Assembly (NCBI GenBank): GCA_030590165.1
Contig: JAUUZA010000027.1
Span: forward strand, 1 to 9,414
DNA: 9,414 bases
Reading direction: 5' to 3'
Source of the DNA: Candidatus Altarchaeota archaeon
GTDB taxonomy: Archaea > SpSt-1190
This document shows, in pieces, positions 1 to 8,503 of this stretch. Position 1 is the first letter of the stretch. Every line of letters begins with the position of its first letter. Below the pieces are notes generated by a model. That model was not told the DNA's origin. It ran no database searches and saw only the letters and a list, made by a program, of their open reading frames with translations. Both the position numbers and the translations under genes were made by a program.

Positions 1-78
1 ATTAATGAGGCTGGAAGCTCAATTGATGATAGCGACCTCAGTATTGATGGTGGAAATGTTGAAGATGCCTGTGAATAA
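1..78 (+). CDS. C-terminal tail of an upstream protein (partial)
   Basis: The frame starting at base 1 is open from the left edge to a TAA at 76-78. It gives 25 residues rich in Asp, Ser and Gly and ending Asp-Ala-Cys-Glu. The acidic, Cys-containing composition resembles the extracytoplasmic domains of the proteins that follow, so it may be another member of the same cluster. The second frame is also open (to 102), but it gives a Met-rich peptide and would overlap the next start, so I prefer this frame. The start and function lie outside the window. Confidence 0.6.
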   Translation: MNEAGSSIDDSDLSIDGGNVEDACE

Positions 79-90
79 AAGGGTGAAGAC

Positions 91-597
91 GTGCAGGGCT
101 TAAAATTGATTATGAATGTTATTGGTCGTTTAGTTATTGTAGGTTTTTTATTTGCTTCAGTAACTCCATACATTTCAGACTTCATGAAAGATAGTTTTGG
201 AGGTCGTGTAGAATTTGAAGCGAGTGAAGAAGAAATTCAATTAACACTTAAACTTTGTCGAAATTTTTATGATGAATCCTTCATCAAAGAAAATTATGAA
301 AAAACATATCACAACTCATTTGAAATGTTTTTTAGTGAGAGTAATTTAGACACACGATATGCCCAAACAAAACTGCTGTGTGGTGCCTTAATTGAAATTT
401 ATAATGATGCAAAAAATTCAAAAAATATTGAAACAACCATAAGTACAATAAATGAAGATTATTCAGTAATTTTTCCTGGACTCGAATTTGATTCAGAAGA
501 AATTCAAACAATAATATCAGAAAATGATGAGATTGTTTGGGTTGGGCTCGTTATAAATGAATTAACGGAGGAAATTAAAAAGGAGGTATCTAATTGA
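91..597 (+). CDS. small secreted/membrane-anchored protein with prepilin-like N-terminus (cluster member 1)
   Basis: The product is 168 aa and of unrecognised family. It starts at GTG 91, preceded by GGTGA at 82-86 with a 4-nt spacer. This start gives Met-Gln-Gly then hydrophobic residues, matching the Met-x-Gly start seen across the cluster. The in-frame ATG at 112 would cut into the helix. Residues about 4-27 form a single transmembrane or signal-anchor helix. The rest is acidic and mainly helical, with Cys56 and a second Cys in a Leu-Leu-Cys-Gly segment near residue 97. The segment around residues 51-65 (Leu-Thr-Leu, Cys, Phe-Tyr-Asp, Ser-Phe-Ile) closely matches cluster member 3, suggesting paralogy. 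It lies 12 nt after the upstream stop, and its stop overlaps the next start, so it is in the operon. Cell-surface location is inferred; no enzymatic motif is visible. Confidence 0.85.
   Translation: MQGLKLIMNVIGRLVIVGFLFASVTPYISDFMKDSFGGRVEFEASEEEIQLTLKLCRNFYDESFIKENYEKTYHNSFEMFFSESNLDTRYAQTKLLCGALIEIYNDAKNSKNIETTISTINEDYSVIFPGLEFDSEEIQTIISENDEIVWVGLVINELTEEIKKEVSN
580..587 (+). promoter_or_regulatory. strong Shine-Dalgarno site for a TTG start
   Basis: AAGGAGGT lies 6 nt before the TTG at 594. It is the best ribosome-binding site in the window and fixes a non-ATG start for cluster member 2, whose first base overlaps the stop codon of member 1 (TTGA arrangement). Confidence 0.75.
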
Positions 598-1412
598 GTA
601 ACCCTGCTTTAGGTCTACTTAATGGGGTTATTCTGGCTTTAATAATATTTAGAGTAGTAATTGTGGGTTCAGTAATAGGAACTGCTGATGTTGTATCTTC
701 CTTTGACCAAAAAATAACAATGGCTCAACTTGAATATCCTAAAACAATCTTAAAACTTGCTCTTCTTGATGATGAAGAATTTTATTCACCAAAAAGGGTG
801 GCTGAAAATTTCAAAGAAATTCAATCCCTATCACCTCATGAACTCGCAATTTCATCTGTTCCACTTGAAATGACTTCCTCAGACATAAAACAATTGCAGA
901 CTGTGCTTCAATCAGATGAAGGTGTTGCAACAGGAGACGCACTCAATTCACTCTTCATAAAATGTCAAGGATGGATGACAAAATCTGCACCAGGAACCTC
1001 TGAGTTTGACCCGAGTGAAAGATATATTGCAGATTATTATGAAGGTTTAATTTCTACAGGAGGATTAAATTTATTAAATCCTACTTCACTCTCAGAATTT
1101 CTTCACGAAAATATTGATGCTTTAAAACCAATTTTTGTGAATGATGGACTAAATGCAAAAACATGTGGAAAATGTTTTGAATTAAAAGAAGATTATGCCC
1201 TTGCTTTTAAAGCAAGACAAATGATAACTCCTGAAGATAATGTTAAAACCCATATTGAAATAAGAAGGGAAATGCATGACTTGGGTTGTGCCGAGGTATG
1301 TGCCCAAGTTTGTGTTGATATTTATCCCACATTAAAAGCCATCAATTTTGATGCGTTTAATAACCCAGAACTAAGCAAAGCATTAATATCAAAAAAAATA
1401 CAGGTTTCTTAA
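594..1412 (+). CDS. membrane-anchored Cys-rich extracytoplasmic protein (cluster member 2)
   Basis: The product is 272 aa and of unrecognised family. The TTG start overlaps the previous stop and is supported by a near-perfect AAGGAGGT. Residues about 6-30 form one hydrophobic helix. There is no Lys-Gly before it, though Gly7 could occupy the -1 position of a class III cleavage site. The remaining ~240 residues are soluble and mixed charge. Six Cys occur: 124, a Cys-x-x-Cys pair at 191/194, and 232, 236 and 240 spaced every four residues. This arrangement could form disulfides in an extracytoplasmic domain or bind a metal; the sequence cannot decide. Next to one-helix neighbours, it is probably a subunit of the same surface assembly. 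It is one of the two largest products of the cluster. Confidence 0.87.
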   Translation: MSNPALGLLNGVILALIIFRVVIVGSVIGTADVVSSFDQKITMAQLEYPKTILKLALLDDEEFYSPKRVAENFKEIQSLSPHELAISSVPLEMTSSDIKQLQTVLQSDEGVATGDALNSLFIKCQGWMTKSAPGTSEFDPSERYIADYYEGLISTGGLNLLNPTSLSEFLHENIDALKPIFVNDGLNAKTCGKCFELKEDYALAFKARQMITPEDNVKTHIEIRREMHDLGCAEVCAQVCVDIYPTLKAINFDAFNNPELSKALISKKIQVS

Positions 1413-1421
1413 GGTGTTAGA

Positions 1422-1868
1422 ATGAAAGGAGATGCAGGAAGCCCGATTTGGATTGTTGTAACTCTTCTTTTGGCGTTGGTTGTTGGAATTACAATGTACC
1501 AACTATTACAAAAAACGAGTGCTGATAAAACTTTTGGTAATTGGATGGATGAAATTGGAGGCGGACAAGCTGAACTCACTCTTTCCTCCTTTTGTGAATC
1601 TTGGTATGATTCAGGATTTGTTCTAGGAGCAGTGAATGAAGCAACACAAGCAAAGGCAACTGTTGCAGCCGCATATGAAGGGGCAACAGTAAATTATTTC
1701 ACACGAGAAGAATTTGAATTTGGTGAACGCCTTTCAGATTGTGATTGCGCAGTTTATCTTTACCAAATTGGTTCAATCGACAAACTTGAAACAAGCAAGT
1801 GGTATGATCCTGACGAATGTCATGAACTTACAAACGCGGTTGCTGAAAGCAGAGGCTTGGTAAGGTAG
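1422..1868 (+). CDS. pilin-like small membrane-anchored protein (cluster member 3)
   Basis: The product is 148 aa and of unrecognised family. ATG 1422 follows GGTG at 1413-1416 and lies 9 nt after the previous stop. The N-terminus is Met-Lys-Gly-Asp-Ala, then a strongly hydrophobic helix at about residues 9-29. Lys-Gly followed by Asp and Ala fits the archaeal PibD/EppA class III peptidase consensus ([KR]-G, cut, then an allowed residue). Four Cys lie beyond the helix: 58, 107, 109 and 133. The stretch at residues 52-67 (Leu-Thr-Leu, Cys58, Trp-Tyr-Asp, Gly-Phe-Val) aligns with member 1 around its Cys56. Length and architecture suit a minor pilin or other signal-anchored surface protein; this is inference from topology, not homology. 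Confidence 0.87.
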   Translation: MKGDAGSPIWIVVTLLLALVVGITMYQLLQKTSADKTFGNWMDEIGGGQAELTLSSFCESWYDSGFVLGAVNEATQAKATVAAAYEGATVNYFTREEFEFGERLSDCDCAVYLYQIGSIDKLETSKWYDPDECHELTNAVAESRGLVR

Positions 1869-1873
1869 GTCCT

Positions 1874-2314
1874 ATGAAGGGCCTCTCTTTACTTATTTAT
1901 ACAATTTTTCTTTCAATTATATTCTTTGTAAATCAAAGTGCATTCTTACAAATTGCAGGTTCACTAAATGGTGTTCCAGTACAAGTAGAATTTGTTGGCT
2001 CAACCCTCTATTCACAAATACAAGCTCAAGAAACATTCAACCCACCAAAAGATATGGAAGTTTTTCTTAGTAATTGTCTACTTCCCTCACATCCTAATTT
2101 AGACGTAGAGGATTATGAAATAGCAAGTGAACGGTGTGAAGGTTTTCCTTCAGTTTTATGTGTATTTTATAATTATTACTCTTCTCGTTTCAGATTTTGT
2201 AAACCGATGTGGCAGGAATTAGATAAACAATATTATTTCAATGGTACAACTTCCCCCCTTTTGAGACCTATTCTTTTAGAGGGTGGAATCCTCACATTTG
2301 AAGCTTATGAGTAA
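1874..2314 (+). CDS. pilin-like small membrane-anchored protein (cluster member 4)
   Basis: The product is 146 aa and of unrecognised family. ATG 1874 is 5 nt past the previous stop, with GGTAGGT at 1864-1870 as a likely ribosome-binding site overlapping that stop. It begins Met-Lys-Gly-Leu-Ser and then a hydrophobic helix to about residue 27, a good match to a class III (prepilin-type) cleavage site after Gly3. The soluble part has four Cys (68, 88, 96, 109), an even number suggesting two disulfides, and many aromatic residues between 97 and 122. The gene is followed by the only sizeable gap in the cluster, which carries a possible TATA box, so transcription may restart after it. Confidence 0.86.
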   Translation: MKGLSLLIYTIFLSIIFFVNQSAFLQIAGSLNGVPVQVEFVGSTLYSQIQAQETFNPPKDMEVFLSNCLLPSHPNLDVEDYEIASERCEGFPSVLCVFYNYYSSRFRFCKPMWQELDKQYYFNGTTSPLLRPILLEGGILTFEAYE

Positions 2315-2318
2315 TTAC

Positions 2319-2326
2319 TTTAAATA
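2319..2326 (+). promoter_or_regulatory. possible internal TATA box in the membrane-protein cluster
   Basis: TTTAAATA matches the archaeal TATA-box consensus well. It lies in the only gap above 20 nt inside the cluster (2315-2347 or longer). Its centre is about 25 nt upstream of a GTG at 2348, the usual distance for a leaderless transcript start. In AT-rich DNA such a match could be chance; a read-through operon remains possible. Confidence 0.4.
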
Positions 2327-2347
2327 TTGTAATTGTTTATTTCATCT

Positions 2348-2770
2348 GTGGGAGTTCAAGAAGATGTAATGTTTATGTCTGGTGTTTTTGGGCCCCTTCT
2401 TAGTTTTGCACTAATTGTTCTTCTTGGTATATCTACTTATCAAGGACTGGCCACGATGGGAATGACAAATAATTTTGCTATTAGGTCTGATGTACTTGCA
2501 GCTTCAATGAGTTTGGTTAATATGCATCCACATACAGAAGTGAATCTAAGCTGGGATTATCTTCCTTTTTCAATTGGAGTTCTTGAAGGCAATATTAATG
2601 GAGGACTTGGAATGTTTTTTCCTACTGAGACCGCAACTTTTTCTTCATATCCTTTAACTATCCCATTTTCAACAGATAATATTAAAGAAAACATTCACTA
2701 TGTTTCAAATGATTCTATCTCTAAATTTTGTTTTAAAAATTTAGGAAATCCAGAGGCGAGAATGGAATGA
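2348..2770 (+). CDS. membrane-anchored small protein (cluster member 5), start uncertain
   Basis: The product is about 140 aa from GTG 2348 and of unrecognised family. Possible in-frame starts are TTG 2333, GTG 2348, ATG 2369 and ATG 2375. No Shine-Dalgarno site has good spacing for any of them. I chose 2348 because it sits at leaderless distance from a TATA-like box. ATG 2375 would instead give Met-Ser-Gly followed directly by the hydrophobic helix, resembling its neighbours' Met-x-Gly starts. One helix (about 20 residues) is followed by a helical linker and a soluble domain. Its single Cys lies near the C-terminus in Ser-Lys-Phe-Cys-Phe, a motif also present in cluster member 8. The stop overlaps the next start. 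Confidence 0.8.
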   Translation: MGVQEDVMFMSGVFGPLLSFALIVLLGISTYQGLATMGMTNNFAIRSDVLAASMSLVNMHPHTEVNLSWDYLPFSIGVLEGNINGGLGMFFPTETATFSSYPLTIPFSTDNIKENIHYVSNDSISKFCFKNLGNPEARME

Positions 2771-3780
2771 AGGGTTTAGACGGAATTACAATGGGAGTCG
2801 TATTTATTCTTATAATAGGAATAATTAATATTTCAAGATTTCAAATATCAATAAAACAAGATTTAGATGGATGGCGAATCACTCGTATGGCGATGACTCA
2901 AGCCAATCTAATGGTTTCACACAAATACCAAGATGACTTTGGTATAGTAGACCTTGGAAAATTAGAAATTTCCCCTCAATATGGTTATGAAGTAAGTTAT
3001 GGTGTATATGATCCAGAACAGGGTGAATTTGTAAAAACTAGTGAAAACGGTCTTATGGGAACTGTATTTGAATATGTCTATATTTATGCAGGTGGTTTGA
3101 AAAAAGGGGATTTCAATCTACCAACTCACTCAAAATATTTCACCCCAAGTGCTAAAGAAAGAAGCCTACTCGGAATACCTAAACAAGAACTGAAGGAAAT
3201 TCAGGAAGAGGAATCTGAAGATATTATTGAAACGAGCAAAGAAATTATACGGAGTAATTTAATCGATCAAGTTTACAACACAATTCAAAAAACTCAAATA
3301 TCTTGTCTTTTAACTGTAATCAATTATATGAAAACGCATGGAGATGCTACAGAATCTGAGATATTACCTGTTCTATCTGAAAACTTAGATTGTAATGTTG
3401 AAAGAATTATTTCACTCTACAGAATTTTTGGAAATAGTAAAGAATTTTATGAAGCCTTATTGATGTCAAGCTTTTATCAAACAAATAATATGTTATTACC
3501 TCAAGTGTCCCCCTTTCTTATGAGCACTTATAGTGCATACTTACAAAATTTTGCAATATATTCATTGCCTATAGTTTACAAAGAGGGTTCAGGAAATAAA
3601 TATGGTCTTTTGATAGTCGTTCTAACTCCAAAAACTTATTTTTCAAGTGTTAATACACTCTCAGAAATTTCACAAGAAAATTTACCTGTTTTACCTGATA
3701 TTTACAAAGATTTTTTACCAAGCTTAAATGATTTTTATTTTAATTTACAAGAAACATATGAGAATATGGAGGCGTCATGA
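2767..3780 (+). CDS. large membrane-anchored protein with pilin-like N-terminus (cluster member 6)
   Basis: The product is 337 aa, the largest of the cluster, and of unrecognised family. The start ATG overlaps the previous stop (ATGA), with GAGGCGAG a few bases upstream. It starts Met-Lys-Gly-Leu-Asp, then a hydrophobic helix to about residue 24. That is followed by a continuing amphipathic segment (Asp-Gly-Trp-Arg, then Met- and Ala-rich), as in the long first helix of type IV pilin-like proteins. Residues about 150-235 are predicted helical and acidic, with Cys about 181 and 209. Residues 240-300 are rich in Ser, Tyr and hydrophobics and may be beta-rich. Translational coupling on both sides indicates that it works with its neighbours. 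It could be the scaffold or tip subunit of a surface complex, but nothing proves this. Confidence 0.87.
   Translation: MKGLDGITMGVVFILIIGIINISRFQISIKQDLDGWRITRMAMTQANLMVSHKYQDDFGIVDLGKLEISPQYGYEVSYGVYDPEQGEFVKTSENGLMGTVFEYVYIYAGGLKKGDFNLPTHSKYFTPSAKERSLLGIPKQELKEIQEEESEDIIETSKEIIRSNLIDQVYNTIQKTQISCLLTVINYMKTHGDATESEILPVLSENLDCNVERIISLYRIFGNSKEFYEALLMSSFYQTNNMLLPQVSPFLMSTYSAYLQNFAIYSLPIVYKEGSGNKYGLLIVVLTPKTYFSSVNTLSEISQENLPVLPDIYKDFLPSLNDFYFNLQETYENMEAS
3768..3772 (+). promoter_or_regulatory. Shine-Dalgarno site for cluster member 7
   Basis: GGAGG lies within the last codons of member 6, 4 nt before ATG 3777 and 7 nt before ATG 3780. It supports either of two adjacent Met codons as the start. 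Confidence 0.6.
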
Positions 3781-4175
3781 TGGCTGGAATACCTAAAAAT
3801 TTACCAACAACGGCAATAATGGTTGGACTTGCCTCAGGAATTGCTGTTGGTTTTGCTTTATTTTTTCAACTTTCAATAACTGCAACAGCAACTTATGGAA
3901 GAACACTTAATGCTGCATATCCATATCTTCATGCAATATCAATGCATACTGTAGAGGGTCATCCTTTTCTTTACTATCTATCAAATGCATTGAAAACAAA
4001 TTCAGAAACATTTGAAGGGGTGAATGTTAAAGAAATTTTAATGAACTTCAATGAAACTTTTGAGTTAGTGAATGAAACTGGAGACATAGTACTCTCAACT
4101 GGAGAAAAAAATGGTGAGCGTGCCTTCTTAGCAATTCCTCCAGATGGAAAATTGGTGATGATTTATGACAATTAA
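3777..4175 (+). CDS. small membrane-anchored protein without cysteines (cluster member 7)
   Basis: The product is 132 aa and of unrecognised family. It begins at ATG 3777, overlapping the previous stop (ATGA), or at ATG 3780, which gives Met-Ala-Gly-Ile. A GGAGG site serves both. Residues about 11-35 form a Gly/Ala-rich hydrophobic helix that continues into a Thr/Ala-rich helical region (about 35-60). A short soluble domain follows, ending in a likely beta-hairpin. It is the only cluster member with no Cys. The Gly-Ala-rich first helix followed by an extended helix is pilin-like. The gene overlaps the next one by 11 nt. Confidence 0.86.
   Translation: MMAGIPKNLPTTAIMVGLASGIAVGFALFFQLSITATATYGRTLNAAYPYLHAISMHTVEGHPFLYYLSNALKTNSETFEGVNVKEILMNFNETFELVNETGDIVLSTGEKNGERAFLAIPPDGKLVMIYDN
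4154..4159 (+). promoter_or_regulatory. Shine-Dalgarno site for cluster member 8
   Basis: GGTGAT, a full match to the archaeal anti-Shine-Dalgarno complement, lies 5 nt before ATG 4165 inside the coding region of member 7. It supports the overlapping start. Confidence 0.65.
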
Positions 4176-4806
4176 GAAAGGGTTTGCAACACTTGCCGCA
4201 TTAGCAGTTTCCGGCATGGTAGGAATGGCAGTAGCAGCAATGGCAAGCCAAGCTGCAGAAATGGAAGCAACAGCTGAAATATTTCTTGCAGACCTCCTTG
4301 CATTAAATATGTTTTATCAAGGTAGAAATATTCAAGAAATAATTACAATGGATTCATCATATGTCTTTGAAAAATATATAGAAGAAGGAGGTCCACAATT
4401 TTTTGGTTCTATTTTATTTGAGGGTAAATTTTTGAGTATTTTAAAAGATAGAGGCTCTTCACTAACTTATTCACAAAACTTAGTGAATAATGAATCAGGC
4501 CGTCTTGCTACACAAGTAGCAAAACAATATGAAGATTTGTGGGGGATTACGACTTCAAATGAAAATACAAGCTTTTGCCTTAAAAGAAAAACTTCTCTCA
4601 AATTTGGTGAACATGTAAGTAAATTTTGTTTTGAATCTCCCTTACAAATGGAATCTTTCAAAGTTTTAATTCCCTTAATGATTACGACAATAGAAAATGA
4701 GAATACTTGCATTGAATTTGGAAGCTATTCTATATGTTGGGCAGACCTAATATTTGACGGCATAACAACAAATTTCACTTATGCTATACACGAAATTGTT
4801 GAATAA
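4165..4806 (+). CDS. pilin-like membrane-anchored protein (cluster member 8, last gene)
   Basis: The product is 213 aa and of unrecognised family. The start overlaps member 7 by 11 nt. The N-terminus, Met-Thr-Ile-Lys-Lys-Gly-Phe-Ala, is the best class III signal peptide of the set: Lys-Lys-Gly, then Phe-Ala and an Ala/Val/Met/Gly-rich helix to about residue 30. A predicted long helix follows at 31-60. Cys occur at 138, 155, 182 and 191, enough for two disulfides. The motif Ser-Lys-Phe-Cys-Phe at 152-156 recurs in member 5. The last 23 nt overlap the convergent 3' end of dphB. It is probably the last gene of the left-hand operon. Confidence 0.87.
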   Translation: MTIKKGFATLAALAVSGMVGMAVAAMASQAAEMEATAEIFLADLLALNMFYQGRNIQEIITMDSSYVFEKYIEEGGPQFFGSILFEGKFLSILKDRGSSLTYSQNLVNNESGRLATQVAKQYEDLWGITTSNENTSFCLKRKTSLKFGEHVSKFCFESPLQMESFKVLIPLMITTIENENTCIEFGSYSICWADLIFDGITTNFTYAIHEIVE

Positions 4807-7598: not shown

Positions 7599-7796
7599 TC
7601 AAAGTTCTTTAATTACATTCACAGTTGTTGCAATCCACAAGACTCCACCCATAAAAACGAGGAAGAATGCGACACAAAAAGTGAGTAATGAATCTAATGC
7701 ACTAGCACCAACAAAACTAAAGTTGGACGATAAAATTGCACCTAAAAGAATAGAAAAAGAACCAAAGGCCAAAAAGGCCAGGTCTTTTAATTGCAT
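7599..7796 (-). CDS. small two-helix membrane protein
   Basis: The product is 65 aa and of unrecognised family. It has two hydrophobic segments, about residues 5-26 and 35-60, joined by a short Ser/Ala-containing turn, with a Lys-Glu-Leu tail. Its ATG overlaps the TAA of the lysine-rich gene upstream (TAATG), indicating translational coupling with it, which supports it being a real gene despite its size. The pairing of a DNA-binding protein with a small membrane protein might mean membrane tethering or only operon packing. No function is assigned. Confidence 0.7.
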   Translation of the reverse strand: MQLKDLAFLAFGSFSILLGAILSSNFSFVGASALDSLLTFCVAFFLVFMGGVLWIATTVNVIKEL

Positions 7797-8503
7797 TATT
7801 TATACCATCCTTTTTCGTTACTCTTCACTTTTCTCTCTTTTTTAAGATAGAAGAGATAACGTCGTGCAGTTTGAAGTGTTATTCCTACTCCTCTTGAAAC
7901 TTGTGCAATAGATTTAGGAGATTTTTGTTTCTTCAAATAAGTAATAACTTGATCTTTCTTACTTGGAGCTCTCTTTTTCTTCACAACTTTCTTCTTGACT
8001 GTCTTTCTCTTCACTTTTCTCTTCTTTGTGGCTTTCTTTTTAACAGTCTTTCTTTTAACTGTTCTTTTCTTTGTAGTTTTTTTCTTCACTGTCTTTCGCT
8101 TAACAGTCCTCTTTTTTGCTACTTTTTTCTTAGCAGTTTTTCGTTTTACTGTCTTTTTCTTAACAGTTTTTTTCTTGGCTATCTTTCTTTTCACTGTTTT
8201 TTTCTTAGCAGTTTTTCGTTTTACAGTCTTTTTCTTAACAGTTTTTTTCTTGGCTGTCTTTCTTTTCACTGTCTTTTTCTTTACAGCTTTTTTCTTTACC
8301 CTTTTCTTTTTAGCTGGTTTCTTCTTTGCTTTCTTTTTCTTAGCTAAAGCCGCTCCAACTGCCTTAATTCTCCTTGGTTTCTTAGCCCCTACAGGGGCAA
8401 GCTCAACCATATCCGTTGCTTCGATTTCTCTGAGCATCTCACCTCGGTCCGGCAACTTTGTCTCATCAAGACCAAGTAACCAGTCCATAACTTTCCCTAA
8501 CAT
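7796..8503 (-). CDS. linker-histone-like lysine-rich protein with C-terminal winged helix
   Basis: The 235-aa protein has three parts. Residues 1-40 are amphipathic to acidic and include Trp8 and several Asp/Glu. Residues 56-175 are 24 uninterrupted pentapeptides of consensus [KR]-K-[TAV]-[VA]-K, extremely basic like the tails of linker histone H1 and the bacterial Hc/AlgP-type H1-like proteins. Residues about 182-235 look like a winged helix-turn-helix: a first helix from Lys-Lys-Asp-Gln-Val-Ile, then Ser-Ile-Ala-Gln-Val-Ser, a recognition helix with Thr-Ala-Arg-Arg-Tyr-Leu, and a basic wing ending Gly-Trp-Tyr-Lys. The likely role is DNA compaction or a sequence-guided chromatin regulator (inference). 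The ATG start has a TATA-like box 27 nt upstream and no clear ribosome-binding site. It lies 34 nt after the CBS gene and is coupled to the 65-aa gene downstream. Confidence 0.85.
   Translation of the reverse strand: MLGKVMDWLLGLDETKLPDRGEMLREIEATDMVELAPVGAKKPRRIKAVGAALAKKKKAKKKPAKKKRVKKKAVKKKTVKRKTAKKKTVKKKTVKRKTAKKKTVKRKIAKKKTVKKKTVKRKTAKKKVAKKRTVKRKTVKKKTTKKRTVKRKTVKKKATKKRKVKRKTVKKKVVKKKRAPSKKDQVITYLKKQKSPKSIAQVSRGVGITLQTARRYLFYLKKERKVKSNEKGWYK
7979..8338 (-). repeat. 15-nt periodic repeat tract encoding 24 lysine-rich pentapeptides
   Basis: Each 15-nt unit encodes one pentapeptide of consensus [KR]K[TAV][VA]K, with no spacer between units. The + strand is correspondingly pyrimidine-rich (runs of TTTTTCTT). 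It creates long Phe/Leu-rich open frames on the + strand that are not genes. Such tracts are prone to slippage and copy-number change. Confidence 0.9.
8123..8272 (-). repeat. 75-nt tandem duplication inside the lysine-rich tract
   Basis: Bases 8123-8197 and 8198-8272 differ at only two positions of 75. Each copy carries five pentapeptides. One difference is silent and the other changes Thr to Ile (Lys-Ile-Ala versus Lys-Thr-Ala). The rest of the tract is more diverged, so this looks like a recent unequal-crossover or slippage event. Confidence 0.85.

Follow-up and report, generated by a model that had tools for sequence, protein, structure and literature searches.

A conserved 19-gene operon of Altiarchaeota: a probable machine of the type IV filament superfamily, with mostly unrecognised subunits

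What is built from eight consecutive genes that each encode one hydrophobic helix and a soluble domain? Such a row lies in the window, i.e., the stretch of DNA analysed here, which is an entire contig of 9414 bases (C26). The source genome (G000) comprises 724 kb in 64 contigs, is estimated to be 88% complete, and has Candidatus Altiarchaeota MAGs as close relatives in the named genome collection. A preliminary description, made from the letters of the window, had suggested a multi-subunit pilin-like or other surface complex that could be matched to no known system. Below we ask what the genes are part of, how their products may be processed, and which known machines they resemble.

The eight genes, the contig break and the conserved order

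As described earlier, the eight single-helix genes lie on the plus strand and overlap or nearly do so, and each product has a single hydrophobic stretch, at its N-terminus. The row begins with g1 (91..597, 168 aa), an open reading frame with positional orthologues in G001, G002 and G005, which overlaps by 4 nt with g2 (594..1412, 272 aa, six Cys), likewise read from its frame and orthologues. It continues with g3 (1422..1868, 148 aa), which begins MKG and is documented by alignments, a profile and a structure model, and with g4 (1874..2314, 146 aa, four Cys). The start of g5 had been sought at a later Met, which would give Met-Ser-Gly. Because most orthologues begin M-G-[VIA]-x-E, and the N-terminus M-G-V-Q-E is conserved, the most likely start is instead the GTG at 2348 (2348..2770, 140 aa; alternative start 2333); the M-G of this family has no charge. 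Then follow g6 (2767..3780, 337 aa), which starts MKG, and g7 (3777..4175, 132 aa), a helix with a small alpha/beta domain in its structure model, both read from their frames and orthologues. The last of the row is g8 (4165..4806, 213 aa). Its 3' end shares 23 nt (4784-4806) with that of dph5, a convergent gene, and tail-to-tail overlaps of 4-29 nt recur among the relatives read.

By a crude hydropathy test, about 10/53 other open reading frames of the genome have a single N-terminal helix, so that eight in a row would be expected by chance with a probability of about 1e-6; a chance cluster of single-helix genes was set aside. The Cys counts of g1 to g8 are 2, 6, 4, 4, 1, 2, 0 and 4, in keeping with the paired Cys noted earlier for most of the products. 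The best conserved subunit is g3 (its first five sequences are 59-73% identical), with a near-invariant helix and four invariant Cys in the orthologue alignments. The soluble domain of g6 varies in length between species, with orthologue proteins of 152-544 aa, and g7 has a conserved C-terminal stretch, LAVPPGGxLVxxY. Pfam gave no match to g1-g8 below E 0.04, and NCBIfam none for g3, g4, g5 and g7 and one unrelated match under the cut-off for g8. The profile search for pilin families suggested with the preliminary description, run in this way with curated models, returned no pilin among these products. A scan of genome contigs based on g6 found no relative, its patterns coming mostly from variable parts; alignment of g3 succeeded.

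That no ATPase or platform gene is in view remains true of the window, but the operon has both across a contig break, and they are missing from the window because the contig ends inside the operon. Specifically, bases 1-21 of the window (plus strand) are identical to the end of another contig of the same genome (C53, read on its reverse strand), and this 21-mer has exactly two copies in the genome, both at these contig ends. The eight genes claimed are preceded by a ninth such gene, g0, with the 3' end of which the window begins (1..78, plus strand): the frame INEAGSS...DACE, closed by a stop, continues the g0 of C53. Joined over the junction, g0 encodes a Cys-rich, pilin-like protein of 182 aa with its MKG start on C53, and it aligns with four orthologues on either side of the junction. 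We conclude from the unique 21-base overlap and the read-through of g0 that the two contigs are adjacent. The first half of the operon, on C53, consists of the ATPase, the platform, eight small membrane proteins and the 5' part of g0.

The operon as joined has 19 genes in about 11.2 kb: a secretion ATPase (741 aa), a platform protein (643 aa), eight small single-helix proteins (65, 46, 65, 64, 37, 105, 124 and 42 aa, in this order), g0, and g1-g8. A single transcript is plausible because the intergenic gaps measure only -11 to +37 nt. With a probability of roughly three in four, we take g1-g8 to be the distal part of this operon and the operon to encode a machine of the type IV filament superfamily.

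The order of the genes, whose conservation the preliminary description had singled out for checking, is kept in the relatives. One contig of G002 (C45) carries the ATPase, the platform, the small proteins and g0-g8, followed by dph5, and one of G001 (C6) carries the ATPase through g6; for G003, G005 and G006 the operon halves lie on separate contigs, each of which ends inside the operon. The series g5-g8, dph5 (on the opposite strand), nob1 and rps15 has the same order in G003, G005, G006 and G004, and G001 keeps the block as g6-g8. In two genomes of more distant families, G007 and G009, the order g3-g8 can still be recognised, although g6 and g8 are much longer there and one large member is added, and the g3 profile matches 10/10 Altiarchaeota genomes searched. 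Operon gene order is kept across the phylum Altiarchaeota.

Some further features were seen in these regions. In the subunit region of G008 (C17, L097) the reading frames of both strands are broken and overlap, a run of letters is masked, and the operon is not confidently readable. Between ATPase and platform, G006 has a 282-aa reading frame without a hydrophobic start (C66; L101, 11192-12040) that is absent in the other relatives read. On the minus strand of the window, a 65-aa two-helix membrane protein without a Pfam match (7599-7796) is conserved at the corresponding position in G001, G004 and G006. The product of the minus-strand gene at 7796-8503 is rich in Lys, contains many repeats of the type KKKTVKRK and has a winged-helix-like segment at its C-terminus, with matches to HC2 and FaeA; its length is very variable among relatives (124-289 aa).

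N-terminal motifs, prepilin peptidase and predicted folds

Prepilin-like N-termini had been ascribed to seven of the eight products on the strength of a Gly just before the helix. For four of them the orthologues uphold this: Lys or Arg followed by Gly (K/R-G) is kept before the helix in 9/9 orthologues of g3, 8/8 of g4, 9/9 of g8 and 7/8 of g6, a total of 33/34. K/R-G is not conserved in the orthologues of g1 (MQG here), g2 and g7 (MAG here), and for g1 and g7 the claim falls with the Gly itself, which is not conserved either. K/R-G is also found near the helix in 9/55 other N-terminal-helix reading frames, some of which may be pilins of other systems, and the evidence is therefore the conservation of the motif and not the motif itself. 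Archaeal prepilin peptidases require G, A or S at position -1, and -2 is often charged (PMC4371748); class III signal peptides of this description are found in g3, g4, g6 and g8 only. The MKG leader has three residues, which is under the range of 5-13 residues reported for prepilin and pilin-like leaders of M. maripaludis (PMC3875500).

A homologue of peptidase A24 (PF01478) is present in 9/10 Altiarchaeota genomes, namely G000 and 8/9 relatives. In G000 it is located elsewhere in the genome, outside the operon. Its PF01478 score of 26.5 bits is borderline, at the cut-off, and it was not reported by hmmscan; its orthologues are clear, it has 38-55% identity to three family orthologues, and both catalytic Asp are conserved. 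Both genes for which the preliminary description would have searched the rest of the genome, for a prepilin peptidase and a secretion ATPase, are thus present.

The two predicted structures, of g3 and g7, do not point to pilins. AlphaFold2 modelled g3 (7 sequences) as one long helix with shorter ones (pLDDT 82.7, pTM 0.71), for which the fold search gave no convincing PDB match. The model of g7 (6 sequences) has a helix and an alpha/beta domain (pLDDT 75.5, pTM 0.58), and its best fold matches are helix-tethered Cache/PDC-like sensor domains, whose Z scores reach 7.8 and do not rise above the stated noise level. No pilin is among the listed PDB fold matches of g3 and g7, and neither predicted model supports the classical pilin fold that would have strengthened the earlier idea.

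These models fit a different reading, in which g0-g8 would be bitopic proteins that stay uncleaved and, as scaffold, stator or receptor, form a membrane-anchored envelope complex round the motor, while the motor would polymerise the tiny peptides only, or move a substrate. Alignment and stator proteins, too, are built of a single helix and a soluble domain, with PilN/PilO, GspL/GspM and the archaellum F/G proteins for comparison. Besides this architecture, the all-helical model of g3, the alpha/beta model of g7 and its resemblance, under noise level, to tethered sensors would agree with such a complex, as would the lack of a conserved K/R-G in g1, g2, g5 and g7. However, K/R-G is conserved in nearly all orthologues of g3, g4, g6 and g8, and the genome has a peptidase. 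We consider an envelope complex unlikely, though not to be dismissed.

The motor, its relatives and its spread

The operon ATPase is of the CpaF/TadA/FlaI type with a family-specific N-terminal domain, and it matches T2SSE (PF00437) with E 1.3e-17. The platforms of seven relatives match T2SSF with E 1.4e-5 to 8.6e-4 per genome, under the curated cut-off (19.3 bits for G001), and the platforms of G000 and G001 are 59% identical over 643 aa. An upstream ATPase with a TadC-like platform points to the type IV filament superfamily, and in this the earlier suggestion of a multi-subunit pilin-like or surface system has gained ground. Tad/Flp pili are alike in having a TadA/CpaF-family ATPase, a TadC-like platform and very short helix-only subunits, but the operon ATPase matches the TadA family (TIGR03819) with E 6.8e-40 and 137 bits, far under the cut-off of 373, and the operon lacks a separate TadB gene. 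The archaellum is alike in its families of FlaI-like ATPase and FlaJ-like platform, but the FlaI score of 130.6 bits (NF058587) is far under the cut-off of 550 and no archaellin-like gene was recognised in the operon. The archaellum was set aside on that score.

Two further ATPase-platform sets, systems of type IV pilus/Tad type, are present in G000: one on C60 (L103), which includes a pair of TadC-like genes and the gene of a DUF2341 protein, and a Tad-like one on C20 (L104), with a short Flp-like pilin (MRGMTTVEWLVIAAIVL). The presence of these systems would suit the view that the operon builds an ordinary adhesive type IV pilus of a known archaeal kind whose major pilin is encoded elsewhere in the genome, and archaea with multi-pilin loci and stand-alone major pilins are indeed known (PMC4858521). 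What makes this rather improbable is that the C53 type is parted from the C60 and C20 ATPases by long, supported branches in the ATPase tree, that a profile of the ATPase N-terminal domain (A8) matches within G000 the C53 ATPase only, and that g1-g8 are without Pfam matches. The archaeal type IV pili of clades 1, 2 and 4 (Makarova, Koonin and Albers 2016, PMC4858521) share with the operon an ATPase, a TadC-like platform, several minor-pilin-like proteins, class III signal peptides and a prepilin peptidase encoded outside the locus. In clade 1, and in many loci of clade 2, there are two TadC genes and the pilins belong to recognised arCOGs (PMC4858521), whereas the platform of the operon is encoded by a single long gene and none of its products belongs to a recognised pilin family.

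The ATPase N-terminal-domain profile matched 187/394 genomes, mostly of 0.5-1.5 Mb, which to judge by size and gene content are probably DPANN. Forty loci, some of them cut by contig ends, were picked from matched genomes outside Altiarchaeota. In 19/40, no fewer than five single-helix reading frames come after the ATPase and platform, in eight families outside the phylum, and some of the remaining loci have the ATPase-platform pair alone. The platform of one such locus aligns over its full length with that of G000 (E 3e-77), and small-genome archaea have ATPases that cluster with the C53 type. For the subunits, hhalign probabilities of g5-g8 against single-helix reading frames of the other families were at most 13%, and hmmsearch in these families gave weak leads only, a 70-aa frame in L152 that resembles g3 in the helix region (E 4e-5) and one in L162 that resembles g6 (E 0.01). 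We therefore claim as shared the ATPase, the platform and the layout, and not orthologous subunits. An Alba-like gene (VYVGSKPxMSYVLAVVTQF) was seen near the subunit cluster in G009 (L096) and in other archaeal families (L151, L162, L182), and may be a conserved neighbour.

This spread bears on two other readings. The diverse soluble domains would suit an operon for surface adhesins or receptors that only happens to adjoin pilus genes, but the genes overlap, they keep their order behind the same ATPase and platform throughout the phylum, and the same layout recurs with other single-helix proteins in the eight further families, so that we give this reading very little weight. The locus might also build or export the hami, the grappling hooks of altiarchaea, since both occur in Altiarchaeota. 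The hamus protein, however, is S-layer-like and shows no kinship with pilins (PMC4460559), and the ATPase family is present in many lineages beyond the phylum, which makes a role in hami most improbable of all.

The statement that the genes match no known system was too strong. A paper of 2024 (PMC11291902, Nat Commun) reported for cluster 2 DPANN conserved loci that are type IV pilus-like, comprise CpaF, TadC and coiled-coil proteins, and are suspected of a role in host contact. The lineages concerned are Nanohaloarchaeota, Woesearchaeota, Pacearchaeota, Nanoarchaeota, Aenigmarchaeota and Undinarchaeota, without Altiarchaeota, and the figure legend names filament proteins for locus 1 only. 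Compared by description, these loci share with the operon a CpaF-type ATPase and a TadC-like platform; they differ in that the operon has a fixed set of 17 single-helix proteins and no strong coiled-coil protein among g0-g8. On a crude heptad score, g0-g8 reach at most 0.62, while the background reaches up to 0.82 and the coiled-coil reading frames of family f21 score 0.78-1.0. Five loci of this family (L151, L153, L164, L165 and L169) have the ATPase-platform pair and, further downstream, frames of 465-577 aa with a strong coiled-coil pattern, and are for these reasons probably the same loci as those reported. The open-access literature, in a search that was not exhaustive, yielded no description of an Altiarchaeota pilus locus or its subunits. 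On that search the Altiarchaeota form and its subunits may be new, and DPANN loci of a related kind are partly described (PMC11291902).

A proposed machine and its meaning

Most likely the locus is that of a machine of the type IV filament superfamily whose subunits are unusually many and for the most part unrecognised. For g0-g8 we infer, and propose here, processing, interaction and filament formation along the following lines. The K/R-G subunits (g0, g3, g4, g6 and g8) would be inserted by Sec and trimmed by the FlaK/PibD-like peptidase of the genome, and the ATPase and platform would then pull the trimmed subunits out of the membrane into a helical core. The repeating subunit may be one or more of the peptides of 37-71 residues, and the Cys-rich g0-g4, together with the variable g6 and g8, might form a tip or initiation complex. 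Two products without a conserved K/R-G, g5 and g7, may be anchored in the membrane as parts of a stator or for alignment. The outcome would be a surface filament or a short pseudopilus for attachment or export, both roles being guesses from the superfamily.

A bolder reading, which we put forward tentatively and at somewhat less than even odds, is that the type IV filament machines of this kind, spread through small-genome archaea, form a distinct class. This class would be marked by an ATPase N-terminal domain of its own, one long platform and an ordered series of unrelated single-helix proteins, with peptides of 37-65 residues as the repeating units and all-helical or Cache-like outer domains in place of pilin beta sheets.

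The motor family is widely distributed among the archaeal genomes sampled, and some of the subunits that go with nanoarchaeal pilus-type ATPases were reported to be unidentified (PMC4858521). For one pilus-type motor of small-genome archaea there is now an ordered, phylum-wide list of subunits with their conserved start codons, Cys and N-terminal motifs, and these features make processing, polymerisation and role testable.
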